Below are positions 21,399-64,000 of a DNA stretch of 64,000 nt, piece by piece (the stretch's first letter is position 1; each line of letters opens with the position of its first letter). Origin of the DNA: Pseudomonadota bacterium. Lineage in GTDB: Bacteria; Pseudomonadota; Gammaproteobacteria; Burkholderiales; Rhodocyclaceae. A program made the position numbers and the translations under genes. The stretch spans positions 186,001 through 250,000 of the forward strand of contig JAGTRS010000001.1 of NCBI GenBank assembly GCA_018262195.1, read 5' to 3'. The notes beneath the pieces are model-generated. The model searched no databases. It saw nothing but the letters and a program-made list of their open reading frames with translations, and had not been told where the DNA came from.

Positions 21399-23018
21399 TC
21401 ACTGGCCGAACCAATATCGACGACGCTCTTGCCGCCACGCCGCCATGGCCACACCCCGCTCGCCCAAAAACACCTGCACGGCACCATCGCGATCCGTCCG
21501 CCAGATTCGGCTACCGATCGCCTCGTGACGTGCCACCACCTCTGCCTTGGGATGCCCGAAGCGACTGCGATAGCCGACCGGAATGACCGCCTCACTGGCC
21601 CCGACTGCCTGCAGAAAAGCGGGTGTCGACGACGTTTTCGAGCCGTGGTGCGGCATCAGCAGAACATCTGCCTGCAACGTATCCGGATAACGTTTGAGCA
21701 ACTCGGCCTCATCGGGCGCCTCGATATCCGAAGTCAAAAGCATCCGTCTGCCACCGGCTTCAACCCGCAGCACACAGGACAGATGATTCGATTTCATATC
21801 ACCCGAATAGGCCTCCGCAGCCGGATGAAGCACTTCGAAAGCCACACCATCCCAAACCCAGCGCTGGCCAGCCACGCAGCGCGCCCCCTCCAGGCCGGCC
21901 ACCGAGGAGCGAACCTCGCCCACGGACAGTGCCGCGCGAACCGATGCCGTTCCGCCGGAGTGGTCGCTATCGCGGTGGGTCACCATCAACATATCGACCT
22001 TGTCGATCCCCAAAAATCGCAGATATGGCACGACTACCCGCTGACCGGCATCCGATTCGGCACTGTAGAGCGGCCCCGGATCGTAGATCAGCGTGTGCTC
22101 ATGCGTCCTGATCACCGTCGCCAGCCCTTGTCCAACATCGAGGACGCTGATCCAGGCTTCGCCTTCCGGTGGTTTCTCCATCGGCCAGAACAACACAGGC
22201 AGCATCAGATACACACCCAACCAGCGTCCCGGCACGCCTCGCGGCAAAAGACAGACCGCCACGCCAATGCCGGCTGTTACGACAAGCCACAGAGGCGGGG
22301 CCGGCACTTGCCAGACCGGCCAAGTTGCACACCAATCCAGAAAAACCATCAACCAGTCCATGACCTGATGGGCCAAACCGAGAATCGGCCACCATGGCAC
22401 TACGGCACCAAGCAGAGCGAGCGGCGTGACAACAAAACTGATCACCGGGATGGCAAGCGCATTGGCGAGTGGGGAAACAAGCGAAAACTGCTGAAAGATG
22501 AGCAGCAAAATGGGCAGTGAAGCCAGCGTCGCGACCCATTGAACGATGCCCCAGGAGCGCACCCGCGCGCGCCAGCCCTGCGCTTCGCCGATCTGGGCTG
22601 AACCCACATAGAGCAATGCCGCGACAGCACCGAACGACAGCCAGAACCCCGCTGCCAGCACGGCCCATGGATCAACCAACAGCACGACGAGCAGCGCCAG
22701 GGCCAGTGTCCGGCTGGGCGCCACGATCCGCCCTGACAACATGGCCGCCGCCGCGACCAGCAGCATGTAGAGCGTCCGCTGTGCCGGCACGGCAAACCCG
22801 GCCAGCAAGGCATAGCCAAATGCGGCAAGGCAGGCGGCCAGCAAGCCGGCTTTTTGCGCTGGCAGACGCAGAACCAAAGCAGGAACCCGTCGCCAGCCGA
22901 ACGACACCAGCCAGCCAAACAAGGCAGCAACCATCGTCACATGCAAGCCCGAAATGGACATCAGATGGGTCGTTCCGGTCCGATTGAAGATCGTCCATAA
23001 CTCACCGTTGGTTCTTTA
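21399..23018 (-). pseudogene. comEC: comEC, 3' part, cut off by the transposon
   Basis: ComEC/Rec2 forms the inner-membrane channel through which single-stranded DNA enters during natural transformation. Here only the C-terminal part is present: from ELWTIFNRTGTTHL just inside the left transposon boundary, through MSISGLHVTMVAALFGWL (competence domain, many membrane helices), to the C-terminal metallo-beta-lactamase-like domain (SVLDVGQGLATVI, VTHRDSDHSGG, LLMPHHGSKTS). Upstream the frame runs into a TAA at 23016-23018 inside the transposon end. The missing N-terminal part is at 63624-64000. A peptide from the internal ATG at 22961 could still be made, but the channel should be non-functional. 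Confidence 0.93.
23003..23010. repeat. Target duplication, left copy
   Basis: CACCGTTG at the left junction matches 63632-63639 at the right junction. Joining the flanks on this sequence restores an uninterrupted comEC frame (GDQRAING followed by ELWTIFNRTGT). Tn7-like elements duplicate 5 bases; because the shared run is 8 bases, the exact five (for example ACCGT or CCGTT) cannot be decided. Confidence 0.8.
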
Positions 23019-23339
23019 AAAATGAAAGCTGCGCTGTTAATAATTAAGTTGCGCTTAAAAATTTAGCTGCGCTGGTGTGCTCAGGCACGCAATCTCGCAT
23101 TAGCACAACATCATCCATACAGCTGTCGGTCCCTTACGCCGCAGCCGATTCCTCCTGCGCAACTTTCATTTTTAAACCAATCCGCATGATAACCATAGCC
23201 TCCTGCCATCAGTCTGAGAGCCAGCACATCCGACCCCAAACTGACTTGCACCATCAACCTGCTCAAACTCTAGGCAAATCGGCCAGTTTTTAAATAGTTA
23301 GTTGCGCTGCAAAATTCAACTTGAAAATTTAGTTGCGCT
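23009..23339 (+). repeat. Left transposon end: terminal repeat and six TnsB-type sites
   Basis: Repeats with an A/T-rich half and the core (G/C)(T/C)TGCGCT: 23015-23035, 23036-23055 and 23056-23073 are head-to-tail at 18-20 base pitch; 23157-23176 is inverted; 23287-23308 and 23322-23339 are direct. The outermost one is part of the terminal inverted repeat (23009-23035). Closely packed sites of this kind are typical of the right end of Tn7. Confidence 0.85.
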
Positions 23340-23563
23340 GACGGTTTGCGTATCAATAGCCCAGTGCTCCAGCCCTTTCGGTGTTGCTGCCAGTGACAAG
23401 TTGGTATTCCCTAGTAACGGGATGTGACTTCAGCAAAATAGCTGCGTAGGCTGCCAATATATTGGCAGGAAAGACCGGATGCAGAGGTCCTCTGGTCGCT
23501 CGTAGCGATTGAAGCTGAGCTACGTCCTGTCAGCAAAACCAGACCGTCGAGAATTGAACCACC
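23340..23563. other. Non-coding stretch inside the left transposon end
   Basis: About 220 bases between the last TnsB-type site and the first possible gene. I see no gene, no clear promoter and no further copy of the end repeat. A short palindrome (TGCCAATATATTGGCA, 23453-23468) is the only structure noted. Confidence 0.5.
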
Positions 23564-23890
23564 ATGGGACCCATTGGTAACGCATTAAACGCACTACTGT
23601 TAAGTGGTGACAACTTACGAGAAGAGTTCGCTGCACAAGGTTTGACCAACTCGGAGTGCTGCGCCGGCCTGCATGCGATTGAATCAAGTGTGAAGGAAAA
23701 CGAATTAGTGCTTGATGTTGCCTTGGAGTTAGGCGCGACTTTTGATGTTCTCCAGAACAGGGCCGTCTGCCACATTCAAGGTGTTTCTCGAGATGGCGGT
23801 AGCTACACCCACGCTGCCCTAAACACCATGCTCACTTTACTGAAACAGCGCTCCCAAAGGTGCCAACGAATTTCCTGGAGCAAGCCGTAG
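23564..23890 (+). CDS. Hypothetical small protein
   Basis: A possible 108-residue soluble protein of unknown function. It has normal amino acid composition with an acidic central part (ENELVLDVALELGATFDVL) and no membrane segment. There is no good ribosome site before the ATG, and the frame ends shortly before the YedK-like gene, so the start or even the gene may be wrong. A gene remnant is an alternative. Confidence 0.4.
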   Translation: MGPIGNALNALLLSGDNLREEFAAQGLTNSECCAGLHAIESSVKENELVLDVALELGATFDVLQNRAVCHIQGVSRDGGSYTHAALNTMLTLLKQRSQRCQRISWSKP

Positions 23891-23991
23891 CTCCCGCCTC
23901 CCCCTCGACGTCCAAATTCCAGGCCCAAAGGTTAAAAAGCCCCCCCTTCATTCGTGTAGATATTCTGCGAGGTTTTGCTATTCTGGGTGCC

Positions 23992-24654
23992 ATGTGCTCT
24001 CACTACGACCCGCAAACTGACCCAGCCCGGCTTCGCACCTATTTTGGTGTCGAGGACCTGCCATTGGGTTTGAAACCCAGTCTGTGGCCTGGTTATCACG
24101 GCCCCTTTGTCCGCAAGCATGAGTTCTCCGATGTTGGTGATGAAGCCGTCCCGTTCAGAGAGCTGTTGGTGGGGTCGTTTGGCCTGATTCCACGCTGGTC
24201 AGATGATGCCAGCATCGCCCGGCGGACCTATAACGCCCGGTCAGAAACGGTTCATGAGAAGCCCAGCTTCAAAGAGTCATGGAGGTTATCCCGGCATTGC
24301 ATCATTCCAGCAGAAGCTATCTATGAGCCTGATTGGCGCTCCGGGAAAGCGGTGGCAACTCGTATCACCCGTGCCGACGGCAAACCGATGGGCATTGCCG
24401 GGCTGTGGTCATATCGTGAGGAGCCAACCGGTTCCGTAACGCACAGTTTCACGATGCTGACCATCAACGCTGACGACCACCCATTCATGCGGCAGTACCA
24501 CAAGCCTGATGACGAAAAGCGGATGATTGTCATCCTGGATGAAAGTGATTACGACGACTGGCTGGCTGCTCCAGCTAGCCATAGCAGGAATTTTCTACGC
24601 CAGTTCCCTGCTGACAATTTAATTGGCCAGCAGCCGCAACAATCACTGCAGTAG
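23992..24654 (+). CDS. HMCES/YedK family abasic-site shield protein
   Basis: A 220-residue SOS-response-associated peptidase (SRAP) protein, which crosslinks to abasic sites in single-stranded DNA through Cys2. The frame is open upstream to 23860, but the start at 23992 places the catalytic cysteine at position 2 (MCSHYDP), as the family requires after Met removal. Other signatures are FGLIPRW, TYNARSETVHEKPSF, CIIPAEAIYEPDW and the histidine in HPFMRQYH. It protects DNA at stalled forks. It fits the DNA-damage theme of the left cargo (UmuDC nearby), though I see no LexA box directly upstream. Confidence 0.88.
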   Translation: MCSHYDPQTDPARLRTYFGVEDLPLGLKPSLWPGYHGPFVRKHEFSDVGDEAVPFRELLVGSFGLIPRWSDDASIARRTYNARSETVHEKPSFKESWRLSRHCIIPAEAIYEPDWRSGKAVATRITRADGKPMGIAGLWSYREEPTGSVTHSFTMLTINADDHPFMRQYHKPDDEKRMIVILDESDYDDWLAAPASHSRNFLRQFPADNLIGQQPQQSLQ

Positions 24655-24711
24655 AGCTTCAATTCGCTGGCAACATCCAGCTTGCAGCCTTTCCGTAAAC
24701 CAACGTCTCTC

Positions 24712-25161
24712 TTACAGCAGAATACTGGACAGCCCACTGAAGACCTCAGTTGTCGGAGGAAAAGTCCGCCCCGTCTTCTCGCAGAACGCATCGAACTCCG
24801 CTGCCGGTATATGGGTCATCCAGGATGTCAGTTCGGACTCCCATTCACCACCGACGCGATGAAGCTCTTCCGAAGGAAACGGCCCGCTACCTCCGCCAGA
24901 GCTTTCAAAATGGCGCATCGGTGAAGGATGCTGGACTCCGACCAAGTTGAAGCGCCCATCAGGTAGTGGAGACACCACCAAGTAGTCGCCGTAAAGCAAC
25001 CGGAAATCTTCCAGAATGCCCGAAGAGCTTACAACGACAGCCGTGTCGAGACCGATGAACTGAACGGAAAGCCGCTGGTTGTGGCTCTCAAACTCGCCGT
25101 CCAGTTCATACTCTGTGACCAGCTCGATTCGACGAATCGTGGATTGGGTCGATGCCGACAT
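24712..25161 (-). CDS. Hypothetical protein
   Basis: A 149-residue soluble protein that I do not recognise. It begins MSASTQSTIRRIELVTEYEL, is predominantly beta-strand-like and acidic, and has no signal peptide or known catalytic motif. It follows the nitroreductase gene on the same strand with a 52-base gap, so it may be in its operon. Confidence 0.6.
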   Translation of the reverse strand: MSASTQSTIRRIELVTEYELDGEFESHNQRLSVQFIGLDTAVVVSSSGILEDFRLLYGDYLVVSPLPDGRFNLVGVQHPSPMRHFESSGGGSGPFPSEELHRVGGEWESELTSWMTHIPAAEFDAFCEKTGRTFPPTTEVFSGLSSILL

Positions 25162-25213
25162 TACGGCGCATCCTTGTTTGAGGGAGTGCTCGTGCCTAAA
25201 AGTGGCCGACGGG

Positions 25214-25906
25214 TCAGTCCTTGAACTGCACCCACTCGGTCAGCGGGGCGCGCTCTGTTCTCAAGGCATTCTCCGGGGCATCCGGATTGCCGAAACCAAG
25301 CGACATGCCACAAACAACGGTCTCGTTCTCTGGCAAGCCCACTTCCTCGCGGATGATACGGTGGAACTGAACAAAGGCCGCTTGCGGGCAGGTATCCAAG
25401 CCACGTGCTTTGGCAGCCAGCATAACGTTCTGAACGAACATGCCGTAATCCAGCCAACTGCCTTGTTCCATCACCGTATCAACAGTAAATATCAGGCCAA
25501 CGGGTGCATCGAAGAACTGGAAATTGCGGGCGTGCTGCTTGTGCATCCGCTCTGCATCGCCTTTCTGGATGCCTAGCAGCTCGTACAAGCCGAGACCAAC
25601 CTTGCGCCGACGCTCTATGTAGGGCGATATCCACTTTCGCGGGTAGTACGGGTAGGACTCAGCGTGCGTAGCGGCTTCTTCAGGGTCGTCGAATGCTGCG
25701 ATTACCCGCTCGCTAAGCCTGGCTTTGCTTTCCCCGGTCAGCACCCACACTTTCCAGGGTTGAATGTTGGTGCCGGATGGAGCTCTGGAGGCGATGGCCA
25801 AAATATCTTCTATGACGGACCTAGGTACCTCTGTGGGCAGATAAGCGCGACAGGAATATCGGCTTTTCATAACTTCATCGACGGCGGCTTGAATTGGGGT
25901 TTTCAT
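25214..25906 (-). CDS. Nitroreductase family FMN enzyme
   Basis: A 230-residue flavin-dependent NAD(P)H oxidoreductase. FMN-binding elements are SRYSCRAYLP near the N-terminus and SRAPSGTNIQPWKVWVLTG; the later GLDTCPQAAFVQF and CGMSLGFGNPD segments also match the family. I chose the start MKTPIQAAV; an ATG six codons upstream is in frame. Such enzymes reduce nitroaromatics or quinones; the natural substrate is unknown. Probably first gene of an operon with the hypothetical gene downstream. Confidence 0.88.
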   Translation of the reverse strand: MKTPIQAAVDEVMKSRYSCRAYLPTEVPRSVIEDILAIASRAPSGTNIQPWKVWVLTGESKARLSERVIAAFDDPEEAATHAESYPYYPRKWISPYIERRRKVGLGLYELLGIQKGDAERMHKQHARNFQFFDAPVGLIFTVDTVMEQGSWLDYGMFVQNVMLAAKARGLDTCPQAAFVQFHRIIREEVGLPENETVVCGMSLGFGNPDAPENALRTERAPLTEWVQFKD

Positions 25907-26079
25907 AGTTCTTATGTGGTTCAACTATCGTTGTAAGAAAATCGGGAGAGCGGGCTTAAAGTGGTATTAGGCCCGATACGATATCGACAGTCATCAGGGT
26001 GCAGCATATTTATCCTCATTTTCTGTGGATAACGCTGTGAGTCCCACCTGAATCTGGAAGCCAACCACTTGATGCACAG

Positions 26080-26628
26080 ATGATTTCGAGTCACTGCCTA
26101 CAACTTAAGCACACACTGTCAGTCTTGGCATGTTCCGTTTGGATTTCCGTGGCTATCGCGAAGCCCGGACCCCATCCCCCCTTTGAAACTACGGGAGTAG
26201 TCACGGCCAACCATGATGGCGACACCCTCAAGCTACAGACGGCCGACCGTGGGCTTCTGGTGGTCCGGCTATCTGCTGCTGATACACCGGAGACCGGTCA
26301 AGCCTACTGGAGGGCTGCGCGCGGCCACCTAAGACAACTTGTATCAGGAAAGCAAACGACGGTGTGGTGCTACAAACGTGACAGGAATGAGCGCGAGGTC
26401 TGTCACGTGAAGGTTGACACTCAAGATGTTTCTGAAGCGCTTATTCGCCAGGGTTATGCCTGGTATGCGCACATGTTTGGTAACGAGTTCTCCCCTGAAC
26501 AACGTGAGGTCTATGCACAAGTGGAAAAGGATGCCCGAGCCCAACGTTTGAGGCTCTGGAGCGACCCCGACCCCATGCCACCTTGGGAATGCCGCAAACT
26601 GAGGAAAGCACACCAGAAGTGCCGCTAG
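26080..26628 (+). CDS. Secreted staphylococcal-nuclease-like protein
   Basis: A 182-residue SNase-fold (thermonuclease) protein with an N-terminal signal peptide (about residues 12-28, LSVLACSVWISVAIAKP). Fold signatures: VTANHDGDTLKLQ, VVRLSAADTPETGQ and ARGHLRQLV, giving the acidic and arginine residues of the nuclease site, although the first arginine region is less standard. C-terminal YAHMFGNEFSPEQREVY is typical of the YncB/thermonuclease group. It likely acts on extracellular or periplasmic nucleic acids. Confidence 0.85.
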   Translation: MISSHCLQLKHTLSVLACSVWISVAIAKPGPHPPFETTGVVTANHDGDTLKLQTADRGLLVVRLSAADTPETGQAYWRAARGHLRQLVSGKQTTVWCYKRDRNEREVCHVKVDTQDVSEALIRQGYAWYAHMFGNEFSPEQREVYAQVEKDARAQRLRLWSDPDPMPPWECRKLRKAHQKCR

Positions 26629-26651
26629 GCCTCTCTGTGGAAGGGTGAAGC

Positions 26652-27938
26652 CTATCTAGCCCGAACCTGTGGGATTTCATCCCAAGCCGTTGTGAATCGG
26701 GGAGATAAGTGACCTCTTCGCATCCGCCATTGGTTGTTAATACCCTCAGCTGCTAGTTTTAAGGTCCCGCGCCCGTATCGTTTGTTGATGCTATCCATCG
26801 CGTCCATGAGCGATTCGCTGCGAGCGCTTACGAGACCGGTGGGGGCGAGCAAGGAGAATTGCTGATTTGCCCGGGGAACAATGTCCATCAACGCGATTCC
26901 CGCTTTATGGTAACCATAGCCCGGCCTGTAGATGCGACGTAGCACCCTTAAGCCCCAAGCCGTCAGGGTGCGACTGTCGGCCGTCGCTTCGGGCAGCGGG
27001 ACCGTGACCGACTTTTGGTATTGAGGCGCTTCTGGATTGAAAATATTCGTCCGGATGTAGACTTGGAGTGCGCCCGCAAGGGATTCCTGCCCTCGGAGTT
27101 TTTCTGCCGCCCTACTGATGTAGGCGGCCACAGCCTCCTCGAGGTCTGAGCGGTCATAGACCAGCTGACCAAAGGAGCGACTGCTCATGATTTGCTGGCG
27201 AGCAGGAGCCACCTCCTCGAGATTGAGGCACGACAGTCCGCGCAGTTCTCTCACTGTGCGCTCCAGCACTACGGAGAACTGACTCCGAATGGATTCGGCA
27301 TCGGAGTCGCGCAACTGCCGGACGGTCTGAATCTTCATTTCGGCAAGGCGCATGGAAATCTTCCGGCCAACGCCCCAAACCTCGCCAACATCAATACGCT
27401 CGAACAGATGAGTGAGACTCTCCATGTCCATAGTGGTGAAGTCGCAGACCCCATCCATCCCCGCCAGCTGCTTCTTGGCGCAATGGTTTGCAAGCTTCGC
27501 GAGCGTCTTTGTCGCGCCGATGCCCACGCAGACCGCCAGGCCCAACCAGTCAGCCACCCGCTGGCGTATCTCGATGCCGTGAGAGGTGTAACCGATGCGC
27601 TCAAAGCCGGAGAATTCCAGGAATGACTCGTCGATTGAGTAGACCTCGACGTTGGGGGAGAACTGACTCAGCACTTCGACTACGCGGTTGCTGAGGTCCG
27701 CGTAGAGGGAGTAGTTCGAGCTGAACGCTACGATGCCATGGCGTTTGGCTTCCTCCTGGATTTTGAACCACGGGACACCCATAGGAATTCCCAGGGCCTT
27801 AACCTCGGCACTACGGGCGACTACACAACCGTCGTTATTCGAAAGGACGACAACCGGTATATTTTGGAGGGCCGGATTGAACAGCTTTTCACAAGACGCG
27901 TAGAAGTTGTTGCAATCCACCAAGGCGAATACGGGCAT
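26652..27938 (-). CDS. umuC: Error-prone DNA polymerase V catalytic subunit UmuC
   Basis: A full-length (428-residue) Y-family DNA polymerase. Catalytic carboxylates are in MPVFALVDCNNFYASCE (Asp8) and VYSIDESFLEF. The little-finger region and a C-terminal tail (YGRGTLKLAAEG, RGHLSPRFTTAWDEIPQVRA) match UmuC. It performs translesion synthesis with UmuD' and RecA. It is the last gene of a LexA-box-controlled cassette; umuD ends six bases before it. Mobile umuDC copies on plasmids and transposons (rumAB, mucAB) are known, so cargo status is not surprising. Confidence 0.95.
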   Translation of the reverse strand: MPVFALVDCNNFYASCEKLFNPALQNIPVVVLSNNDGCVVARSAEVKALGIPMGVPWFKIQEEAKRHGIVAFSSNYSLYADLSNRVVEVLSQFSPNVEVYSIDESFLEFSGFERIGYTSHGIEIRQRVADWLGLAVCVGIGATKTLAKLANHCAKKQLAGMDGVCDFTTMDMESLTHLFERIDVGEVWGVGRKISMRLAEMKIQTVRQLRDSDAESIRSQFSVVLERTVRELRGLSCLNLEEVAPARQQIMSSRSFGQLVYDRSDLEEAVAAYISRAAEKLRGQESLAGALQVYIRTNIFNPEAPQYQKSVTVPLPEATADSRTLTAWGLRVLRRIYRPGYGYHKAGIALMDIVPRANQQFSLLAPTGLVSARSESLMDAMDSINKRYGRGTLKLAAEGINNQWRMRRGHLSPRFTTAWDEIPQVRAR

Positions 27939-27944
27939 CCAGGG

Positions 27945-28409
27945 TCAGGCTCCCAATCGCTTGAATTTGCCGACTACGACTCCCCAGACAACCATCTCCT
28001 GTTCTTCGCGGATATCTAGTGCAGGGTAGCTTGGATTCTCGGCAATCAAGGCAACTCGACCATTCCGGCGGTAGAGGCGCTTCACTAGCCGTTCCCCGTC
28101 GACGAAGGCGACCACGATGTGTCCGTGCCGAGGCCGAACGCTCTTGTCGACGACCAGGATATCCCCGTCAAAAATCTCGGCTCCTTGCATTGAATCCCCT
28201 TCCACCGCGAAGAAGAAAGTCGCGACTGGGTTACGCACTAGATATTCGTTAATATCTAGTCGCGCCTCCTCGTAGTCAGCGGCTGGGCTGGGAAAGCCCG
28301 CAGAAACTTTCACTCCTCCGAGGGGAAGCGCTAATTTAGGGGCACCTGGTAACGGAACGAAGACTCCTTGGGAGCTGTTCATTCCCTTGGTAATACTGAG
28401 CTCAGGCAT
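27945..28409 (-). CDS. umuD: UmuD, self-cleaving subunit of DNA polymerase V
   Basis: A 154-residue S24/LexA-type serine protease fold protein. The cleavage site is Ala37-Gly38 (AGFPSPA), the nucleophile is Ser73 in VEGDSMQGA and the general base is Lys110 in LVKRLYRR. The spacings (35 and 37 residues) equal those of E. coli UmuD. RecA-stimulated cleavage gives UmuD', which activates UmuC. The start overlaps the zinc-ribbon gene stop by eight bases. Confidence 0.95.
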   Translation of the reverse strand: MPELSITKGMNSSQGVFVPLPGAPKLALPLGGVKVSAGFPSPAADYEEARLDINEYLVRNPVATFFFAVEGDSMQGAEIFDGDILVVDKSVRPRHGHIVVAFVDGERLVKRLYRRNGRVALIAENPSYPALDIREEQEMVVWGVVVGKFKRLGA

Positions 28410-28590
28410 GGACTACGCGAGACTCGGCAAAGTGCTCTTCCAGCGAGTGGTATTCCGGTTCAGCGTGCTCTGAGACAAGAACAGCGGAGCATTCTGGGCA
28501 GAGTAGGCTTAGTTGGCCAGCAATGGTTGCCTGCTCGAGTTCAGCGGCAGCCAGGGGGGCATGGCAGTGCGGGCATACGATTCGGACCAT
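28402..28590 (-). CDS. Small zinc-ribbon protein leading the umuDC cassette
   Basis: A 62-residue protein beginning MVRIVCPHCHAPLAAAELEQ, with a second pair CPEC at about residues 36-39, so a four-cysteine zinc ribbon. The start is fixed by AAGGAGAGC just before the ATG; the frame is open further up to 28641 but that stretch overlaps the LexA box. It is the first gene under the SOS promoter and overlaps umuD. It may bind zinc and nucleic acid or act as a regulator of the polymerase; that is inference. Confidence 0.7.
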   Translation of the reverse strand: MVRIVCPHCHAPLAAAELEQATIAGQLSLLCPECSAVLVSEHAEPEYHSLEEHFAESRVVHA

Positions 28591-28606
28591 ATTGCTCTCC
28601 TTGAAA

Positions 28607-28626
28607 TACTGTAATTTTATACAGTA
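28607..28626. promoter_or_regulatory. LexA (SOS) box before the zinc-ribbon-umuD-umuC cassette
   Basis: TACTGTAATTTTATACAGTA is a perfect CTGT-N8-ACAG palindrome, the LexA operator form of beta- and gammaproteobacteria. It ends 16 bases before the zinc-ribbon ATG (minus strand), consistent with direct SOS control. A second half-type site (CTGT at 28644) lies nearby. Confidence 0.9.
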
Positions 28627-28718
28627 AACAAGGAGGCGCAATACTGTATGCAGAACCCCCTAGATTGAGCAGCTACACGTCTTGGCTATTCTCGGACAAG
28701 AAAGCCTTGTGGTGAAAA

Positions 28719-30173
28719 CTACCTACTTTTTACGAAACGCCGAGTCGCATCGGTTTTCATTAGATGGACCGCAAGCCATGGGCCGCCATCCATCGCCCGT
28801 ACATCTTTTATCAAGCTTCGTCCGACCAGGAATGCGATTGCGGCATTCAGCCGACGTGGTCCCCAACCAACAATGGCGTCGATTTCGGAGGGCTCACAGG
28901 GAAAGTTCTCATCGTTCACCAATCCAGATGCGACACGAAGCGCATCTTCTGCTGGGTCCCATCCCATCCAGAATTTGTCGAAGCGGACAAAAAGCTCTTC
29001 CTCTGGGTAAATCAATTCAAGCTGATGCTTCGTAACCAGGCCCTTCAACTCGAATACGGCATCCTCGACGTCTTCCTCAGATAGCGACAGCTTGCTAGCG
29101 AGCTCATCGAGCTCGATACACGGGTCAAGTTTTCTTGCCTCTTTTGTAGTCTCGACAAAAAATTTAGCCAGTGCGGTATCAGCGCCGGCAAATTTCAAGC
29201 GAAAGTTTTTGTCGCTAAGCATTAAGTGAGGCCTAGTTTGGTAGACATATGCAAACGACCCTACCAGGTCAGCGGACCCGCTTGCCCGTGTTACTAACAC
29301 ATCTCCAGGCTTCACCTCTAGTTCAGGCAGTGGCGCGAGAGAAGCAGGAAGCGCTTTGTGTTCAGTCTCTCGATAGATGCCTCCATTTGCCGCCCCTGCC
29401 TTCAAGACGCCCCATTCATCGTCATCGGTCAATCGAGCCTCGCACTCGGGACTCCAGCCTTGTTCAATACCAGCTATCAAATGTTTGAGGCGAGCGCAGC
29501 GCCATCCAGCCGGCAACACTGGAATCCAAGCATTCCCCGTAGATTCAGTAGCGCTTACCCCACCGAAACAAATTCGAGCGAACTCAGCTGAGCGCCATTC
29601 CTCCAGCGTGCTTTGAAGCTTTTCTTTCTCTGCAATCAAGGCATCAATGCGCACCGTTTTTCCGTCTAGGAAGTTTGCAATGCGTATCTGCTCGCTTAGA
29701 CAAGGGACTCTTAGTGGCGTCATTCCAAGGTCGTTAATACTCAGGGCGTATCGACTGATACCTGTGGCTGCGGTGGAGTAATAATCATGAACCTCCGCCG
29801 ATTGAAGCGCCCAATGCAGAAAAGCGCCATGTATTTTTTCGGCAAACGGGCGTAGCAGTGCTAAGTGGTAGCCGCAGACAACCCCCGGAAGGGCCTCCGG
29901 CACATACGCAGGAATACCGATGTCTGTTGGTTCTTCGGAGTCCTTTGTAACGATAACGTCATCAGCGCAGAGTGTGAAGCGTGCTATTTGTGCATCGGAA
30001 GCAGTAGCAACCATGAAATCCAATTCATTGGTTACGCGTTCATTCCGATACACGTCAACGTAGTTGCAGAGACGAACGACCTGTTCCTCGTCAACGCTAT
30101 GTTTGTCGACGTTGCTCGGCATTACCTCGGCAAATCGCTTAAGGGGTGCCAAGGTCCAAGTGGAAGTGCTCAT
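28719..30173 (-). CDS. hsdS: Type I restriction specificity protein HsdS, fused to an unrelated C-terminal tail
   Basis: A 484-residue chimera. Residues about 1-180 are a first DNA-recognition domain of HsdS with the conserved helix end (PCLSEQIRIANFLDGKTVRIDALIAEKEKLQ). A second recognition domain begins with WIPVLPAGWRCARLKHL but stops at about residue 350 (DKNFRLKFAGAD...TTKEARKLDP). The last 133 residues (from about base 29120 downward) look like a winged-helix protein (LASKLSLSEEDVEDAVFELK, FDKFWMGWDPAEDALRVA) and have no counterpart in HsdS. The second domain lacks its closing helix. With hsdM truncated and no hsdR, it should not work as a restriction system. Confidence 0.7.
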   Translation of the reverse strand: MSTSTWTLAPLKRFAEVMPSNVDKHSVDEEQVVRLCNYVDVYRNERVTNELDFMVATASDAQIARFTLCADDVIVTKDSEEPTDIGIPAYVPEALPGVVCGYHLALLRPFAEKIHGAFLHWALQSAEVHDYYSTAATGISRYALSINDLGMTPLRVPCLSEQIRIANFLDGKTVRIDALIAEKEKLQSTLEEWRSAEFARICFGGVSATESTGNAWIPVLPAGWRCARLKHLIAGIEQGWSPECEARLTDDDEWGVLKAGAANGGIYRETEHKALPASLAPLPELEVKPGDVLVTRASGSADLVGSFAYVYQTRPHLMLSDKNFRLKFAGADTALAKFFVETTKEARKLDPCIELDELASKLSLSEEDVEDAVFELKGLVTKHQLELIYPEEELFVRFDKFWMGWDPAEDALRVASGLVNDENFPCEPSEIDAIVGWGPRRLNAAIAFLVGRSLIKDVRAMDGGPWLAVHLMKTDATRRFVKSR

Positions 30174-30435
30174 TACGCTACAACTCCCTTCATCAACTCG
30201 ACGAAGCGTTTCTCCATGTCGCGAATTTCTGCGGCTATAACCTCCGGTTTCCGTGATGGCTTATAAACGTAGAAATAGCGATTGAAGTTGATTTCGTAAC
30301 CGACCTTGCCTGGCAGGCCATCCTTCTCATCTTTGATGGTTTCATTTATCCAAGCCTCAGGCGCATGAGGCAGAACTTCGCGCTTCACGTACTCCCCAAT
30401 GTCTTCAGATACGGGACTCGCCTTCGATGAATCGT
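30173..30435 (-). pseudogene. hsdM: hsdM 3' remnant (type I methyltransferase)
   Basis: The last 87 or so codons of a type I adenine methyltransferase: SPVSEDIGEYVKREVLPHAP, then KVGYEINFNRYFYVYKPSRKPEVI and a closing coiled coil. A TAG (about 30436-30438) interrupts the frame directly upstream and beyond it the sequence becomes repeat DNA, so the catalytic N-terminal region is gone. It touches the hsdS start, as in an intact hsdM-hsdS operon. Confidence 0.8.
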
Positions 30436-30514
30436 TTCCTTCCTACCTACGTACATGAATTAACGCACCACACCTCTGTTTGGAGTGCACAGCTGAGGAG
30501 TTTTCACACAGCCT

Positions 30515-30626
30515 CGGTCGAGACACGACGGCCCACTTTTCAACTTCGCTGCCGGAAAGCGGTCGTTGAAGTTTCGACTCTCCGAAGTAGCCATTCGTCA
30601 CTGAGTGCTGACGCCCCGTTGCTGTC
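30515..30626 (+). repeat. Dispersed intergenic repeat, family A, copy 1
   Basis: About 110 bases related to copies at 48704-48832 (inverted) and 51985-52096 (direct). Shared blocks include CCCACTTTTCAACTTCGCTG, TGTTGAAGTTTCG-like and GAGTGCTG. It lies between the broken hsdM and the next gene. No protein seems to be encoded. Confidence 0.75.
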
Positions 30627-30832
30627 ATTCGACAAGCCCATTATTAACGTCTGTTTCCTGGCCAAAAGCTGACTACAGCCGCTCACCCTTACGCCAATTG
30701 CAACTATTTGTTGCGACGCCGGATATATCTGTAATAGCGGCTATAACTGAAGTGACGGGATGGAAGAACACCTCGCCACTTTCATCAGAGGTATTGCACA
30801 GCACGGATGGATTAGTCTTTTGGGAGAGAAAA

Positions 30833-31180
30833 ATGACCAAGAACACCTTGAAAATTACCCTGTCTGCTATCGCACTGGGTTTGATGGCATCTGCTGCTTC
30901 CTTTGCCGCTGATGCCCCGATTTACGGCAGCCAACTGATGACCAATCAGGAACGCATTGAGCATCGCAACAACATCCAGGCCGCTAAAACTGCTGAAGAG
31001 CGTGAGCAAGTCCGGCTGCAACATCATGAACAGATGCAATTGCGCGCCAAGCAACAAGGCGTGACCTTGCCGGATACGCCGCCTACTCAAGGAGGCGGAC
31101 AAGGTCGCGGCATGGGGCCGGGCGGTGGCATGGGTGGAATGGGGCCCGGTGGAGGGATGGGGCCGGGACCGAACCGCTAG
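30833..31180 (+). CDS. Secreted small protein with Gly/Met/Pro-rich tail
   Basis: A 115-residue protein. The start at 30833 follows a good ribosome site (GGGAGAG) and gives a clean signal peptide (KITLSAIALGLMASAASFAA, cleavage after about residue 26). The mature part begins APIYGSQLMTNQERIEHR, followed by a charged helix, and ends in repeats of GGGMGP/GMGGMGP. Methionine-rich tails of this sort can bind soft metals such as copper, but that is only a guess. The ORF extends upstream to 30605 without a plausible start. Confidence 0.75.
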   Translation: MTKNTLKITLSAIALGLMASAASFAADAPIYGSQLMTNQERIEHRNNIQAAKTAEEREQVRLQHHEQMQLRAKQQGVTLPDTPPTQGGGQGRGMGPGGGMGGMGPGGGMGPGPNR

Positions 31181-31230
31181 GCGTCAATCACGGGCATCGG
31201 TAGCAACCGGTGTCCTTTGTATTTCATGAC

Positions 31231-31815
31231 TCAAGCCATCGGCCGCTGGGCCAGCAACCCAAAGTGGTAGGGTGCGCTTGGCCCCAGGTCCACATGAACC
31301 ACTGAATCAAACCCAGTCTCGGATAGCCAGGAAGCACATTGTTCGGGCTTCGGCCGAATAGCCAGTGGTGGCCCGCGAGGCGTTTCGATGTCGCTTCGCC
31401 AGTGAATCACGGAGAGAATGGCACCCGGTCGAAGCGTTCGATAAGCTTCACGCAGGAGGGCCAGCGGGTCTTCGATGTGCAGAAGATTGAAGAGCATGGC
31501 GTGTCCCTGTGAGCAGTCGGATACGCCTGTACCATGCTCAACAAAGTCACGTAATTCGGTTCGCACATTGAGCAGGCCATCCGCCCTGGCTCGTTCAGCC
31601 ACCAACTCGACCATCACAGGCTCGATGTCCAGTGCTGTTACCTTGCCCCGAGTGCGCTTTGCCGCTGGAAGGCTGAACGTGCCGTAGCCACAGCCGAATT
31701 CGACCACGTTGTAGCAGCCGCCCTGGCTAACCAGCAGTCGGTCGAGAATGCCTTCTGGCTGAAAGAACGAGTCCCAGTAGGCCTCGTCCGGCATGCCGCT
31801 TTCACGTCCCTTCAT
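31231..31815 (-). CDS. Class I SAM-dependent methyltransferase
   Basis: A 194-residue Rossmann-fold methyltransferase. Motif I is VVEFGCGYGTFSLPAA (SAM-binding glycine loop), motif II has TALDIEPVMVELV, and the later FNLLHIEDPLALLREAYRTLRPGG-like segment (here LRPGAILSVIHW) closes the fold. It begins two bases after the stop of the DsrE-like gene, so it is the last gene of the ArsR-rhodanese operon. Substrate unknown; a thiol or metalloid compound would fit the neighbours. Confidence 0.85.
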   Translation of the reverse strand: MKGRESGMPDEAYWDSFFQPEGILDRLLVSQGGCYNVVEFGCGYGTFSLPAAKRTRGKVTALDIEPVMVELVAERARADGLLNVRTELRDFVEHGTGVSDCSQGHAMLFNLLHIEDPLALLREAYRTLRPGAILSVIHWRSDIETPRGPPLAIRPKPEQCASWLSETGFDSVVHVDLGPSAPYHFGLLAQRPMA

Positions 31816-31817
31816 AC

Positions 31818-32159
31818 TCAGAACACCAGCACCTTGTCAGCGGCTGCCGTCCATTCGGCCAGTTCCTTCAGGGTGCTGCGCCGAGCCCCTTCGACTACCT
31901 GCTCAACACCCATGCCCCGGGCGTCCATGCAGGTGCCGCAGAGACCGACCTCGCCACCCACCATGCGCACCATGTCTCCGGCGTTGTAATAGCCCTCAGG
32001 CACCTTCTGGCCGCTCTTGGCGCAGGCCACTGCGTCGCCCATCAGGAAGACGCGTACCGTCTGACCTTCAGTCTTGCCGAGCTGGCGAGCCAGGCGCAGG
32101 GCGTTGTAGCTGCGTTCCGTTCCGTAAGGTCCATCGTTGAGAATGAATAAGGTGTTCAT
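31818..32159 (-). CDS. DsrE/DsrF-like sulfur-handling protein
   Basis: A 113-residue DsrE-fold protein: LFILNDGPYGTERSYNALRLA, RVFLMGDAVACAKSGQ and GGEVGLCGTCMDARG, where a CxxC pair could carry persulfide. Proteins of this family move sulfane sulfur between partners. It lies in an operon with a rhodanese-containing regulator, which strengthens a role in persulfide or sulfide handling. Confidence 0.85.
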   Translation of the reverse strand: MNTLFILNDGPYGTERSYNALRLARQLGKTEGQTVRVFLMGDAVACAKSGQKVPEGYYNAGDMVRMVGGEVGLCGTCMDARGMGVEQVVEGARRSTLKELAEWTAAADKVLVF

Positions 32160-32188
32160 GGTTGGCTCCCTATGCGTGGTTGAGAAAG

Positions 32189-32629
32189 CTACTTGCCCCC
32201 GGCCTTGATGGTGGCCTTCAGGGCATCGAAATCCTTGCGTACGCCGTCCTGGAAGAGCAGCCCCGATTTGGCCTGCTTCGGGACGCTCTCCATGTCGAGG
32301 ACGTCAGCAACGATTTGGTAGCTGGCGGCCCCGTTGAAGTCTTTGCCATCGGCGACGATGAGCTGGGTACCGTAGAAGACGGCCGGCGCCGGTAGTCCGG
32401 GAGCCAGGCTGGAAGGCAGCAACTGAATCGGAACACGGTAGGTATTGGCGACTTCAGCCGCGACCTGGAGATTGCCGTTACAGCGCTGGCCCGGTGGGTC
32501 CTTGGCGATGAAGGTAAGTACCTTCTGGCCATTGGCAGTTTGGGCACCGGGAACGGCCATCGATACATCGGCTGCCATGGCCGAGAAGACCAGGGTGCCG
32601 CACAGGGCGAAGATGGATAGATGCTTCAC
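32189..32629 (-). CDS. Predicted periplasmic protein in the sulfur cluster
   Basis: A 146-residue protein. I start it at the GTG 32629 (VKHLSIFALCGTLVFSAMAA), preceded by GAGGAG, which gives a signal peptide; the longer frame overlaps the upstream gene. The mature part (VLTFIAKDPPGQRCNGNLQVA, YRVPIQLLPSSLAPGLPAPAV) has a single cysteine and a thioredoxin-like feel but no CxxC. Function unknown; its operon suggests an exported sulfur- or redox-related role. Confidence 0.7.
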   Translation of the reverse strand: MKHLSIFALCGTLVFSAMAADVSMAVPGAQTANGQKVLTFIAKDPPGQRCNGNLQVAAEVANTYRVPIQLLPSSLAPGLPAPAVFYGTQLIVADGKDFNGAASYQIVADVLDMESVPKQAKSGLLFQDGVRKDFDALKATIKAGGK

Positions 32630-32657
32630 GAGTTGTCTCCTCTGTTGTGGTTTGACT

Positions 32658-33317
32658 TCAGTTCTCGATGGGTTGCCCGCCAGCACGCCATTCGCTGACG
32701 CCATCGGTAATCTTGTGGGCGGTGTAGCCGCGCTGGCGCAGCAACTTCACCGCCTCGTCGGACATCAGGCAGAAGGGGCCGCGGCAGTAGGCAACGATTT
32801 CCTTGTCGGTCGGCAGGTCTGCCAGTCGCTTCTCCAATTCCGCCAGGGGGAGCGAACGGGCGAACGGCAGATGACCGGCGACGTATTCCGCTTCAGGGCG
32901 AACGTCGATGACCACGATGTCGCCGCTACGCGCTTTGGTCAGCAGGCTCTCACGGCTTTCTGACGACAGGGCGTCAGGAGAGGCCGCCATCTGGTCGAGC
33001 GCTACGCGCAGTTCAACGAGGTGCTCCTCAGCCACTTCCCGGACATTGACCCACAACTGGGCAACATCCGGGCCGCTCAGGCGATAGTGAATGAACTTGC
33101 CCTGGCGGCGGGTTTCGACCAGACGGGCTTCGCGGAGAGCGCGCAAATGCGCACTGGCCAGACGCATGTCGATACGAGCTTGTTCGGCCAGGGTTTCGAC
33201 AGTCTTCTCGCCTTGCGCGAGCAGTTCGATGAGTTCCAGGCGCTTGGGGCTGGAAATCGCCTTGCCGATACGGGCAACGTGTTCGTAGAGGTAGGACTTG
33301 GTAATGGTCGGTTTCAT
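32658..33317 (-). CDS. ArsR-type regulator with C-terminal rhodanese domain
   Basis: A 219-residue protein. Residues about 10-95 form an ArsR winged helix (SSPKRLELIELLAQGEKTVE, MRLASAHLRALREARLVETRR). Residues about 125-215 form a rhodanese domain with the active-site loop AYCRGPFCLMS. Such fusions act as persulfide or thiosulfate-responsive switches or sulfur transferases. It is the first gene of a four-gene operon (regulator, periplasmic protein, DsrE-like, methyltransferase), which it probably controls. Confidence 0.9.
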   Translation of the reverse strand: MKPTITKSYLYEHVARIGKAISSPKRLELIELLAQGEKTVETLAEQARIDMRLASAHLRALREARLVETRRQGKFIHYRLSGPDVAQLWVNVREVAEEHLVELRVALDQMAASPDALSSESRESLLTKARSGDIVVIDVRPEAEYVAGHLPFARSLPLAELEKRLADLPTDKEIVAYCRGPFCLMSDEAVKLLRQRGYTAHKITDGVSEWRAGGQPIEN

Positions 33318-33423
33318 GATTACAATCTAACGATTATTGGATTATTTGTAAACATCGATGCTCAGTTGGAAATATTTCGCGGAATCAACCATGCATGGCA
33401 CAGCCTGAAACGGTGGCGTGCAT

Positions 33424-34269
33424 ATGAAGTTGAGCATCCCGCTCCTGCTGTCGCTGGCGCTGCATGCCCTCCTGGTCGCAGGATGGCAGCTCGACGCATT
33501 GAAGAGTGCAAAGAACCCTGAAACCATCGAAATCCGGATTGCCACCCAAGTTCGGGAGGACGTTCAGGAGTTACCCGCACCACCTCCGCCGAAGCCTGCG
33601 AAACTCAGTGCATCTGCGCCACGAACTACGACACCGCCACGTGAGGCAAACCCGGTACCGGCACCAGAGGTATTAGCCATCCCATCAGCCAAGACTCCGG
33701 CTTCACTGGAGGCACCGCCACCACCGAGTGCGGAAGAGTGGCAATTGGCCTCGACCTACAAGCTCAAGAACAGCAAGCGCTATCGCAACAATTGGGGACA
33801 GCTGGTGCGCAGCATGATGGGCACGGCAGTCGAGGGGCCTGGTCAGGGGATGGTTCGTTTCCGTATCGAGATTGCCCCGGACGGTTCGCTCGCGAACGTC
33901 AAGGAGCTTTGGTCCACTTCCGAAAATGCGTCGAAACTGGCCTGGAAGGCCATCAAATCGCTGCCACCGCTACCACCGACGCCAACCGGGCAGCCCCTGA
34001 TATTTGAGCGGACGATTTCATTCCAGCCCTATGAGACTGGCTGGCCGCCGAGCTATACCCTGGACTGCCTGCCGGACCCGCCGGCGTTCAAGAATCCATT
34101 TGCCTGGGATGGCAAATCGCCGCAGGAACAGGTAAAGCACCAGGCACCGAAGCGTGCTCCGGCCGATGCTTCCCAGGAAAAATGCGTAACGGACTCGACA
34201 GCCGACACCATTGAGCAGGAAGAGGGCGAAATGAAACGCCAGATGGAAATTTATCGCTGGGGACGATGA
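33424..34269 (+). CDS. TonB-like energy transducer
   Basis: A 281-residue protein with an N-terminal membrane anchor (LSIPLLLSLALHALLVAGW), a proline-rich periplasmic stretch (about residues 50-105, PAPPPPKPAK), and a TonB C-terminal-type domain (about 125-200, GMVRFRIEIAPDGSLANVKEL, AWKAIKSLPPLP). It then has an extra C-terminal extension with two cysteines that ordinary TonB lacks. No exbB/exbD or outer-membrane receptor gene is nearby. It is transcribed away from the ArsR-rhodanese operon. Confidence 0.72.
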   Translation: MKLSIPLLLSLALHALLVAGWQLDALKSAKNPETIEIRIATQVREDVQELPAPPPPKPAKLSASAPRTTTPPREANPVPAPEVLAIPSAKTPASLEAPPPPSAEEWQLASTYKLKNSKRYRNNWGQLVRSMMGTAVEGPGQGMVRFRIEIAPDGSLANVKELWSTSENASKLAWKAIKSLPPLPPTPTGQPLIFERTISFQPYETGWPPSYTLDCLPDPPAFKNPFAWDGKSPQEQVKHQAPKRAPADASQEKCVTDSTADTIEQEEGEMKRQMEIYRWGR

Positions 34270-35650: not shown

Positions 35651-36493
35651 GTGGCTAGGTATGCAAAGTGGTCAGAAGCAACGATTTCGAGGTTTGAAGC
35701 CGAGGGCCGCGGAAAAGGCACTGGTGCCAGCTATATCCCATGGGTTCAGGTTAGCGACTTCTCCTCTTCAGGTGATTCTCGGCGGGTGTTCAGCCCAAAA
35801 ACGGGACGAGTCCATCACCTCATGTCGACCATCGAGTGGCACATCTTCCTGCTTCTGGAACACGATGAAAAGGTGGCCGATATTCGCGAGCAATTTCCCC
35901 TGGACCGCGGGACAACCCAGTCAGTTGCCGTCGAACTCGGCATCAAGCACCCAACTTACCCCGGGACAAACATCCCGTGTGTCATGACCGGCGATTTCTT
36001 GGTAACCCTGCAACGCCCTCAAACGAATAGCCTGACGATGGTGGATGCCAAAAGCACGAGGGAGGCCGAAGACATCCGCTCTATGGAAAAGCTGGAAATT
36101 ACTCGTACCTTTGGCGACGGCTGCGGTATCCCCCACCACCTGGTTTTCGACTCCATGCTCCCGCAAAACAAGGTCCGGTTCCTCGAATGGATTCGTGCGG
36201 CAGCCCTTACCCAAGAGGAAGAGCAGGAACACGGCGACTTCTATGCAACACACAAGGAGCGCCTGCTCTACGACCTGACGACCTATCGGCGAACCGGCAG
36301 CCTCAGCCAATATTGTGAGAAGTACGATATCCAAACAGGTTCTCGTGACGGCACCGGCCTGCGCGCTGTACGGATGTTGCTGCAAGAACACAAACTGCTT
36401 ACCGACCTGAGCCAGCCGAACCCGACCTCAATCCCCGTTTCGATGTTGAAGCCACGTATCACCCAGGGCCTAACTTTAGTGGCGGGTGCGTGA
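35651..36493 (+). CDS. tnsA: TnsA transposon endonuclease
   Basis: A 280-residue protein (GTG start) that cuts the 5' strand at transposon ends together with TnsB, giving cut-and-paste movement. The restriction-endonuclease-like core has Glu62 (IEWHIFLLLE), Asp115 (VMTGDFLV) and Lys134 (VDAKST), almost the same positions as Tn7 TnsA (E63, D114, K132). The C-terminal part (about 170-280) is the TnsC-interacting helical domain. It overlaps tnsB by eight bases and is the first gene of the operon. Confidence 0.93.
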   Translation: MARYAKWSEATISRFEAEGRGKGTGASYIPWVQVSDFSSSGDSRRVFSPKTGRVHHLMSTIEWHIFLLLEHDEKVADIREQFPLDRGTTQSVAVELGIKHPTYPGTNIPCVMTGDFLVTLQRPQTNSLTMVDAKSTREAEDIRSMEKLEITRTFGDGCGIPHHLVFDSMLPQNKVRFLEWIRAAALTQEEEQEHGDFYATHKERLLYDLTTYRRTGSLSQYCEKYDIQTGSRDGTGLRAVRMLLQEHKLLTDLSQPNPTSIPVSMLKPRITQGLTLVAGA

Positions 36494-47469: not shown

Positions 47470-47477
47470 GGGCACTT

Positions 47478-62790: not shown

Positions 62791-62793
62791 GGG

Positions 62794-63312
62794 TCAGGGA
62801 CGCAGCTTGTAGGTTTCGTCGAAAATGTGTTCGAGCGCCGGATGCACACCACGCAACCCATCAACCACGGCTTTGGCCCAATCGAAATACTCCTGCTTCC
62901 GCCCAAGAGACCAGTCCGCTGGCGGACTATTGGCGATGTCGCGCAGGTTGCAGATTTTATCGGCCAACTTCACGACTTTAGCTCGCCTGCTGATGGTGCC
63001 AGCATGTTCAATCTGGAGCCGCTTGCGGTCAGCTTTGGACAGCGTTTTGTCGTCGGTCACTTCCATCACGATGTCTGTGACTTCTTTGCCGAACTCACGG
63101 ACGAGCTCTAGCTCGGTCGTCTCCGTGTCCTCAATGGTGTCATGAAGGACAGCAGCAATCAGGACGCGCTCATCCTCAATACCGGCTTCGTTGGCCAGTA
63201 CGTTTGCCAGCCCTATGGGATGGTTGATGTACGGGGAAGCCACGAGGTCCTTGCGTCTTTGGTCGCGATGTTTGTGGGCGGCAAAGGCGATGGCCGAGAG
63301 GAGACGATTCAT
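62794..63312 (-). CDS. Mesh1-like small alarmone hydrolase (HD)
   Basis: A 172-residue protein made only of an RSH-type HD hydrolase domain. Motifs: SPYINHPIGLANVLA (His31), AAVLHDTIEDTETT (His57-Asp58 and the catalytic Glu61-Asp62), and VKLADKICNLRDI (Asp118). It has no synthetase, so it fits the small alarmone hydrolases that degrade (p)ppGpp or (p)ppApp. It is the first gene of the seven-gene operon at the right transposon end. Confidence 0.9.
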   Translation of the reverse strand: MNRLLSAIAFAAHKHRDQRRKDLVASPYINHPIGLANVLANEAGIEDERVLIAAVLHDTIEDTETTELELVREFGKEVTDIVMEVTDDKTLSKADRKRLQIEHAGTISRRAKVVKLADKICNLRDIANSPPADWSLGRKQEYFDWAKAVVDGLRGVHPALEHIFDETYKLRP

Positions 63313-63484
63313 GGATTCATGCGCGACTGATGCAAAGAAGCATTTTGCCTGAAGCGCCAGCCGCCAACCAGCAGCAGTATCCCGCTAGCCGAGCTGCAGT
63401 TTGAATGCTGAATATTAAAGAGGAAGCACCTTCGCGCCCCGAAGCACTGAGTTCTTGTTCATCTAACTATGACTATACCAACTC
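63313..63484. promoter_or_regulatory. Upstream region of the right-end operon
   Basis: The promoter of the leftward seven-gene operon must lie here. I see no LexA box, FNR box or strong palindrome. An A/T-rich patch (TGAATATTAAAGAGG, 63408-63422) is the best place for a -10 element but no clear -35 partner is visible. Confidence 0.4.
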
Positions 63485-63633
63485 AGCGCAACTTAATTTT
63501 TAAACCGTAGAACGGCGAGTGATGATGCCAGCGCAGGTTACATTTTTAAATGCCAAAAGAACAGTTTGACACATTCCAATAAAAACAATAAGTTGGCCGA
63601 CCAGCCAGCGCAACTTTCTATTTTCAAGCACCA
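63485..63633 (-). repeat. Right transposon end: terminal repeat and three TnsB-type sites
   Basis: Inverted copies of the end repeat: 63485-63504, 63530-63550 (core AGCGCAGG, one deviation) and 63607-63627. The last belongs to the terminal inverted repeat 63607-63633, the mirror of 23009-23035 with 22 of 27 bases equal. Spacing is loose (45 and 77 bases), as in the left end of Tn7. Confidence 0.85.
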
Positions 63634-64000
63634 CCGTTGATCGCCCTCTGATCGCCAATGACCAGCGCGACCAGAACACCCGCCCATGGATAACTCGCCT
63701 CCGGCAACATGCGGCTGAAAGACGAACGTATTGAATAGCGCAAACGTTCGATGGCGTAATCGGCTTGCCAGACCATTTCGACCTGGCGTTGAGCAGGATT
63801 GGGCCGGACGTAGCCGCTGGCCCGGATATTTCGCTCCAGCAACCAGGCCTCATAATCGAAGCCACCAGGATTGGCATTGCCATGGGGGCGTTTCAGGCGA
63901 ACGGTCATGCGCCATTGTTCGCCGGGACGAACCGGCATGCGCTCGAATTGCTCTTCATCGCGCCGACCCTGATACCAGGAGAGCATGATTTTCTGCGGGA
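63624..64000 (-). pseudogene. comEC: comEC, 5' part, cut off by the transposon (runs past the window)
   Basis: The N-terminal region of ComEC (DUF4131 part): PGEQWRMTVRLKRPHGNANP, GGFDYEAWLLERNIRASGYV and YPWAGVLVALVIGDQRAING. After ING the frame enters transposon DNA, adds GA and stops at TGA (63624-63626). The missing continuation ELWTIFNRTGTTHLMSISGLH is at 22961-23003. The start codon lies beyond base 64000. Confidence 0.93.
63632..63639. repeat. Target duplication, right copy
   Basis: CACCGTTG, equal to 23003-23010. Beyond it comEC continues as ATCGCCCTCTGATCGCC on the plus strand (reverse of GDQRAI codons). Confidence 0.8.

Follow-up and report, generated by a model that had tools for sequence, protein, structure and literature searches.

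The window considered here, a stretch of 64,000 nucleotides (C9:186001-250000) in a host genome of 4.2 Mb and 89 contigs (completeness 99.78%, contamination 9.95%), carries the competence gene comEC in two collinear pieces on the minus strand, with a Tn7-like transposon between them at 23009-63633 (Table 1). An earlier note, made from the letters of the window, had proposed that a 40.6-kb mobile element splits comEC at this place, and both the split and the size, now measured at 40,625 bp, are borne out. Joining the flanks at the target duplication restores a single frame, as the note had observed, here of 772 codons, and its 772 residues align with 87% identity and 0 gaps to the intact, empty comEC of a relative of the same genus (G322). 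The insertion point falls at codon 238 of the joined frame, between the N-terminal domain and the membrane channel; the 5′ half would stop after a few foreign codons (GDQRAINGGA-stop) and the 3′ half is left without the N-terminal domain. An intact second comEC, which the note had named as evidence against its own view, was looked for and none was found in the 99.78% complete assembly, since PF03772 and DUF4131 each match once in the whole genome.

The Transposon and Its Ends

The tns operon is internal, with cargo on both sides, and Pfam confirms the tnsABC-tniQ order recognized at first reading, the coordinates given then for tniQ being correct. The encoded set, comprising a TnsA endonuclease, a TnsB DDE transposase, a TnsC AAA+ protein and a TniQ/TnsD protein, is that of the Tn7-like superfamily, to which the several TnsB-site-like end repeats of the window's element and the terminal TG...CA also point. 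The D, D and E of TnsB that align with Tn7 are presumably its catalytic residues. The predicted model of TniQ (mean predicted local distance difference test score, pLDDT, 84.7) finds its best fold match in Tn7 TnsD 1-318 (8glw; E 4.1e-11). Among the 30 open reading frames (ORFs) of the element scanned with Pfam, no Cas family was found; CRISPR arrays were not searched for. The element has a G+C content of 54%, vs. 60% in its left flank.

Each end bears several motifs of 20-32 nt, inverted between the ends, in agreement with the matched end repeats noticed earlier. The end upstream of tnsA, which is the left end in the window, is taken here to correspond to the right end of Tn7. The duplication itself had to be corrected: CACCGTTG, read earlier as an 8-bp target duplication, was ruled out in favor of 4 bp, ACGG in the sense of comEC (CCGT on the plus strand), a length that fits 11 of 15 related elements, and the extra matching bases beside it are fortuitous and partly belong to the transposon end.

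Table 1. Features of the window (positions from its first letter; ".", no strand assigned).
Feature	Position	Strand	Evidence or remark
comEC 3′ part (Competence membrane domain onward)	21399-23008	-	PF03772 hidden Markov model (HMM) 11-267, window 22239-23006; duplication copy 23005-23008
Tn7-like transposon	23009-63633	.	40,625 bp, ends TGG...CCA
Left end (upstream of tnsA; faces comEC 3′ half with ISGLH codons)	23009-23352	.	repeated 20-32-nt motifs resembling TnsB sites
tnsA	35651-36493	+	PF08722 1.6e-10
tnsB	36486-38615	+	7pik_A E 1.7e-81; D, D, E align with Tn7 TnsB
tnsC	38605-40248	+	8glu_G E 2.1e-57
tniQ/tnsD, putative target selector	40252-41424	+	PF06527 5e-17; alignment to Tn7 TnsD 9.4e-34
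ORF5, conserved fifth gene, C-terminal DUF4096	41627-42676	+	Pfam, blast
Right end	63482-63633	.	three 24-nt motifs resembling TnsB sites
comEC 5′ part (DUF4131 region)	63634-64000, extends to C9:250346 beyond the window	-	DUF4131 match C9:249798-250286; duplication copy 63634-63637
Left cargo	23860-34269	.	
SRAP	23860-24654	+	
Nitroreductase	25214-25924	-	
SNase	26080-26628	+	
UmuC/UmuD	26652-28409	-	
Type I specificity-subunit-like	28719-30173	-	
Methyltransferase	31231-31815	-	
ArsR-rhodanese	32658-33317	-	
Weakly TonB-like	33418-34269	+	
Right cargo	43103-63312	.	includes ORFs without known function
HlyD/TetR (right cargo)	45677-47475	-	
Crp-like (right cargo)	47713-48414	+	
Right cargo, others			histidine kinase, GGDEF, Bax1-I, YggL, Suv3-like helicase, flavin reductase, DsbA, HD protein, XseA-like with DUF5710, HD_4

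Relatives of the Transposon at the Same Site

A search with the TniQ at the level of the order gave any match in 22 of 300 genomes, the window's included; strong matches besides the window were G267, G204 and G058, and G238 matched over 155 residues. A scan of 84,980 species yielded 17 loci, three of which were taken as G267, G204 and G058, and the window, the 17 scan loci and G238 together make 19 distinct genomes with a close TniQ. The element lies in comEC in 17 of these 19 and at one site within 6 nt in 16, as the earlier note had foreseen when it suggested comEC as the attachment gene of a family and proposed to look for close TniQ homologues at the same codon. Close relatives at unrelated sites, which it had set against this idea, amount to one of the 19 (G302, intergenic) against the 17 in comEC; targeting is thus strong but not absolute.

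On a single contig, both halves of comEC flank TniQ in eight genomes, namely the window's, Dechloromonas hortensis (G300), a Dechloromonas metagenome-assembled genome (MAG; G301), Malikia (G307), Acidovorax (G309), two Derxia (G310, G311) and a Comamonas MAG (G312), and likewise in the one-contig genome G238, while one half shares the contig of TniQ in five others (G303, G304, G305, G306, G315). At the common site the element starts 18-24 nt downstream of the first GDQ base (16 genomes; ten starts computed and those of G305, G309, G310, G315, G316 and G238 counted by eye, with the boundary set at TGG in G305, G315 and G316, which offer one end only), and in the ten computed genomes 47-62 nt separate the start of the duplication from the ISGLH codons that follow. 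TniQ is antisense to comEC at all 12 same-contig loci as well as in the window and G238. Exact 4-bp duplications, found in 11 of the 15 elements with both ends read, including G314 and the G302 element outside comEC, and termini in TG...CA, mostly TGG...CCA, were read with both features in view when the ends were chosen. Element lengths range from about 22 to more than 50 kb, and the hosts with a family name in the TniQ tree labels all belong to betaproteobacterial families. Sequence comparison shows that in many hosts insertion has taken place at a single site of comEC (within 6 nt), with one orientation and, for the most part, 4-bp duplications of local sequence; a fixed attachment site and orientation are further marks of the Tn7-like superfamily.

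Several observations weigh against the targeting of comEC by TniQ. Only the 5′ half of comEC is seen in G305, G315 (no PF03772 match) and G316 (3′ half not searched), and in G308 and G316 the comEC half ends in an element-like end with TniQ on another contig, the TniQ of G316 being a fragment. Four of the 15 elements depart from a 4-bp duplication: it measures 5 bp in G308 and 3 bp in G311, and G309 and G310 lack one altogether. In G314 the element is in comEC near codon 71, away from the common site. The element of Crenobacter oryzisoli (G302; C27:16732-50343), whose ends were found by a degenerate repeat scan, exact-repeat searches having given nothing, is intergenic, with FMN-reductase-like and AraC-type genes as neighbors and comEC intact; it carries the second-closest TnsABC (49/52/56%) and yet lies outside comEC, so that a close TniQ does not guarantee this target. 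For a TniQ of this size (about 390 aa), moreover, direct reading of DNA is uncertain by the account in PMC10293859, and ORF5 may take part in it.

Two loci call for a separate word. G314 was also considered as an exception with an intact comEC, a candidate that was rejected: its 725-aa frame is without the comEC start and its element is split over C57 and C10. G313 is decayed, with a broken TniQ and adjacent comEC pieces on another contig, and its element was not placed.

Outside these genomes, no relative of the TniQ was found among the viral contigs searched; 169 plasmid records gave matches, all of them over less than 80% of the query, and the 20 matches listed had 24-31% identity. A class-wide profile search returned seven of 369 genomes, the window at 2e-147 and six others at 1.5e-31 to 2e-16. 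Two further TniQ-like matches in the window's own genome (G000:C70:42129-44585; L032, L180, L182) suggest another Tn7-like element there.

comEC in the Comparison Genomes

In 13 of the 16 family genomes with a PF03772 match (the others being G302, G313 and G314), that match begins at HMM 9-13, vs. none of 52 comparison genomes (Fisher 1.8e-11), 22 of which are of the same genus and were not scanned for TniQ. In a control set of 19 genomes, 17 had a PF03772 match, G238 with its split gene among them, and G078 and G315 had none; in all 16 genomes with a distant TniQ only and a comEC match, comEC is whole, with PF03772 matched from HMM 1 and frames of at least 748 aa. A second set of 41 genomes gave 37 with a PF03772 match, and only that of the window begins there (HMM 9-13); five more (G318, G333, G334, G323, G321) are broken at other places. 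The genus of the window has many whole comECs. The matches of the same-genus genomes G323 (C10/C17; HMM 91/93 with a stop) and G321 (C159; at a contig end) are broken elsewhere in the gene.

Of the remaining three, two carry a different element. In G318 and G333, of the same genus, an unrelated large serine-recombinase element splits comEC inside the SISGLH codons (G318:C33:109608-143311, L116, about 33.7 kb; G333:C8 about 1086371-1114276, about 28 kb). The recombinase (L115:2237-4033, region L115:1335-4033) is 92.6% identical in the two genomes, and a search of 199 family genomes gave three relatives (35-41%). In G334 (C72 end; L119), the contig ends where comEC is cut, almost at the same residue, and the element is unseen. 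The 3′ half of comEC in G333 (C8:1065001-1086371; L148/L117) has a further break near residue 480, where about 20 kb separate its pieces.

Target DNA and Its Recognition

Conservation of comEC was assessed on 37 of 46 fetched loci, those with a frame above 650 aa and both motifs present, and the GDQ-ISGLH spacing is 24 codons in all 37. The 36-nt segment HLMSISGLHVTM ranks first of 764 for conservation, at 1.37 bits, a value that two segments of the WAVLAAGFWLSF block equal to two decimals. The top-ranked segment begins at about +37 nt relative to the insertion, which itself falls in a poorly conserved patch. In Tn7, TnsD binds to the final 36 bp of glmS and insertion takes place about 25 bp from there (PMC2918618); insertion beside the top-ranked conserved DNA of comEC resembles this arrangement.

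Very probably, the element is a transposon of the Tn7 type in which TniQ/TnsD guides TnsABC to a single attachment site within comEC. TniQ would most likely read the highly conserved DNA coding for HLMSISGLHVTM, and TnsC would then bring the transposase in, so that the element would land on the 5′ side of the conserved block, at a distance of about 37 nt, with its tnsA-upstream end closest to the block and a 4-bp target duplication made. With comEC cut, natural transformation should no longer bring DNA into the host. We infer that the comEC site is read by TniQ, either by itself or together with ORF5.

Natural Transformation

ComEC provides the DNA channel of transformation (PMC8579336). A comEC deletion serves as the non-transformable control in Acinetobacter baumannii, and insertion into comM is described as reducing transformation, in the same source (PMC11472951). 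Given this role of ComEC, loss of transformation through the insertion, which the earlier note had inferred, is likely; DprA and PilQ are present in the host genome. Whether the element gains from this loss is another matter. Position beside the top-ranked conserved DNA of comEC, as Tn7 uses glmS, would suit a neutral choice of a conserved anchor that brings no benefit from blocking transformation. This explanation seems unlikely, if still worth weighing, as comM, another transformation gene, is targeted by both Tn6022 and Tsy (PMC10293859), and the serine-recombinase element also cuts comEC in the same block, a case for which conservation alone could still account.

ORF5, a Conserved Fifth Gene

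Downstream of tniQ lies ORF5, whose one Pfam match (DUF4096) is confined to its C-terminal 70 residues and whose predicted model (pLDDT 78) matched no solved fold at E 0.001. It occurs in nine of the ten fully read elements (the window, G300, G302, G307, G309, G310, G311, G312 and G238), all nine of which also have TnsA, TnsB and TnsC, the TniQ and ORF5 of G238 being truncated and its TnsC shorter. The tenth, that of G301, is a deletion derivative with remnants of TnsB and TnsC, a retained TniQ and no ORF5. In this G301 element (C1:178001-204000; L128/L129), TniQ adjoins the right end, and the element may be immobile or moved in trans.

Such distribution raises the question of whether TniQ is only an adaptor and ORF5, with its DUF4096 C-terminus, reads comEC, as TnsF reads comM for Tn6022. 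ORF5 was also present at 13 of 16 loci (taken with 10-kb flanks) in the initial blast, 13 of 14 aligned members of its family match DUF4096 at E up to 1, and for some TniQ/TnsD proteins direct attachment-site binding vs. need of a partner is described as hard to predict (PMC10293859). However, G301 sits at the common site without ORF5, though a later loss is possible, and the Crenobacter element carries ORF5 outside comEC. Outside D. hortensis, ORF5 is also more diverged from that of the window (18-30% identity) than TniQ (29-40%) while the site stays constant, and the lack of a solved fold at the above threshold gives no help. Sole recognition by ORF5 is thus rather improbable, and TniQ is kept here as the putative reader, with or without it.

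Evolution of the Family

The aligned TniQs are 29-67% identical to that of the window, so the comEC site has been kept over a long divergence. In the unrooted TniQ tree, computed, like its alignment, without G313 (decayed), G316 (fragment) and G238 (truncated), Crenobacter is sister to the window, D. hortensis and the Dechloromonas MAG (support of 100/99 for the group of four), a position that suggests either a switch of target or an insertion off target; the TnsB tree was computed without G301, which has no full TnsB. The duplications differ between hosts and match the local comEC, which argues for repeated insertion. The alternative of one ancient insertion spread by recombination of an interrupted comEC is very improbable: it could draw on the nearly identical site in 16 genomes and on the TnsABC that D. 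hortensis and the window share at 57-69%, but the variable, locally matching duplications, the wide range of element sizes and the many whole comECs in the window's genus all speak against it. That comEC is merely a dispensable landing place, with insertion occurring widely and survivors found where it is harmless, hardly deserves credence, even with unrelated elements hitting comEC in the same genus and distinct transposable elements reported at non-identical positions in comEC of Piscirickettsia (PMC12955456), given 16 insertions within 6 nt, one orientation in all 14 judged on one contig and whole comECs in all 16 genomes with distant TniQs only. Repeated, directed insertion by the transposon is retained.

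Cargo

The specificity-subunit-like gene of the left cargo is accompanied by no HsdM or HsdR family among the 30 ORFs scanned. In the right cargo, the block with HlyD, TetR and Crp (43103-48414) is 95-99% identical to that of the G301 comEC element (L129), of which the TniQ is only 41% identical to that of the window; near-identity of the block with diverged TniQs points to a recent exchange of cargo between the two elements. SRAP is also found in the G301 element (L129:9208-9894) at 85% identity, and the SRAP and UmuC/UmuD genes of the window (23860-28409) are 76-81% identical to cargo of the G318 serine-recombinase element in comEC (L115/L116).

Significance

The window thus holds a member of a real and apparently undescribed family of comEC-homing Tn7-like transposons, with mostly 4-bp duplications and an uncharacterized fifth gene. 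No literature linking comEC to Tn7-like insertion was found in a search that left subscription papers mostly outside, so an earlier description is possible; the nearest precedent is Tn6022 (TnsF, comM). The literature search returned no paper for comEC together with TniQ, and for comEC with "Tn7-like" it returned PMC11472951, whose Tn7-like element is in comM. Neither Benler 2021 (PMC8649781) nor Faure 2023 (PMC10293859) names comEC in its main text, and Croucher 2016 (PMC4774983) describes elements in comM, comYC and radC, with a mention of comEC that names the pore.

For the biology of mobile elements, the family offers a direct test case: by choosing comEC in several betaproteobacterial families, it may disable the very uptake system able to remove such elements. 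As ComEC is the transformation channel, its interruption should block transformation more completely than an insertion into comM. A broader proposal, which is tentative and somewhat short of an even chance, would regard transformation shut-off as a selected homing strategy of Tn7-like elements that evolved at least twice (comM with TnsF, and comEC), the ISGLH block as a convergent site that also serves the serine-recombinase element, and ORF5 as a new kind of fifth core protein that takes part in choosing the target or in controlling that choice. The family also represents a system for site-specific integration, with a new anchor, duplications mostly of 4 bp and a core gene yet to be characterized.

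Comparison with Known Systems

Tn7 makes a 5-bp target duplication. Like the window's element, it encodes TnsA, TnsB, TnsC and TniQ/TnsD, its TnsB, TnsC and TnsD being the nearest solved relatives by sequence, and it inserts in one orientation with conserved coding DNA a few tens of nucleotides to one side. Unlike Tn7, which targets the DNA downstream of glmS, the family targets comEC and its insertion destroys the gene; the duplication is an exact 4 bp in 11 of 15 family elements, the window's among them, and the 5 bp of Tn7 in one; and the tns operon of the window is internal with cargo on both sides. In Pfam scans only, none of the 30 ORFs matched TnsE, ORF5 matching DUF4096 alone.

The Tn6022/AbaR elements, to which the earlier note had compared the one in the window, are likewise Tn7-like and split a natural-transformation gene at a fixed conserved site, but their target is comM and their reader, TnsF, is an inactivated tyrosine recombinase (PMC10293859). 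The comparison is apt as far as insertion into a competence gene goes and does not extend to membership, given the comEC target and the absence of TnsF or any tyrosine-recombinase family from the Pfam scans of the 30 ORFs, smaller ORFs not having been scanned. The serine-recombinase element of G318 and G333 shares with the window's element comEC, the conserved block, the genus and, in G318, related SRAP and UmuCD cargo; it differs in its recombinase and in cutting inside the SISGLH codons, and no Tns family was found in the ten G318 ORFs scanned. Finally, Tsy, a tyrosine-recombinase element in comM, also has a competence gene as its attachment site (PMC10293859), and differs from the family described here in its recombination chemistry and in not being a Tn7 transposon.

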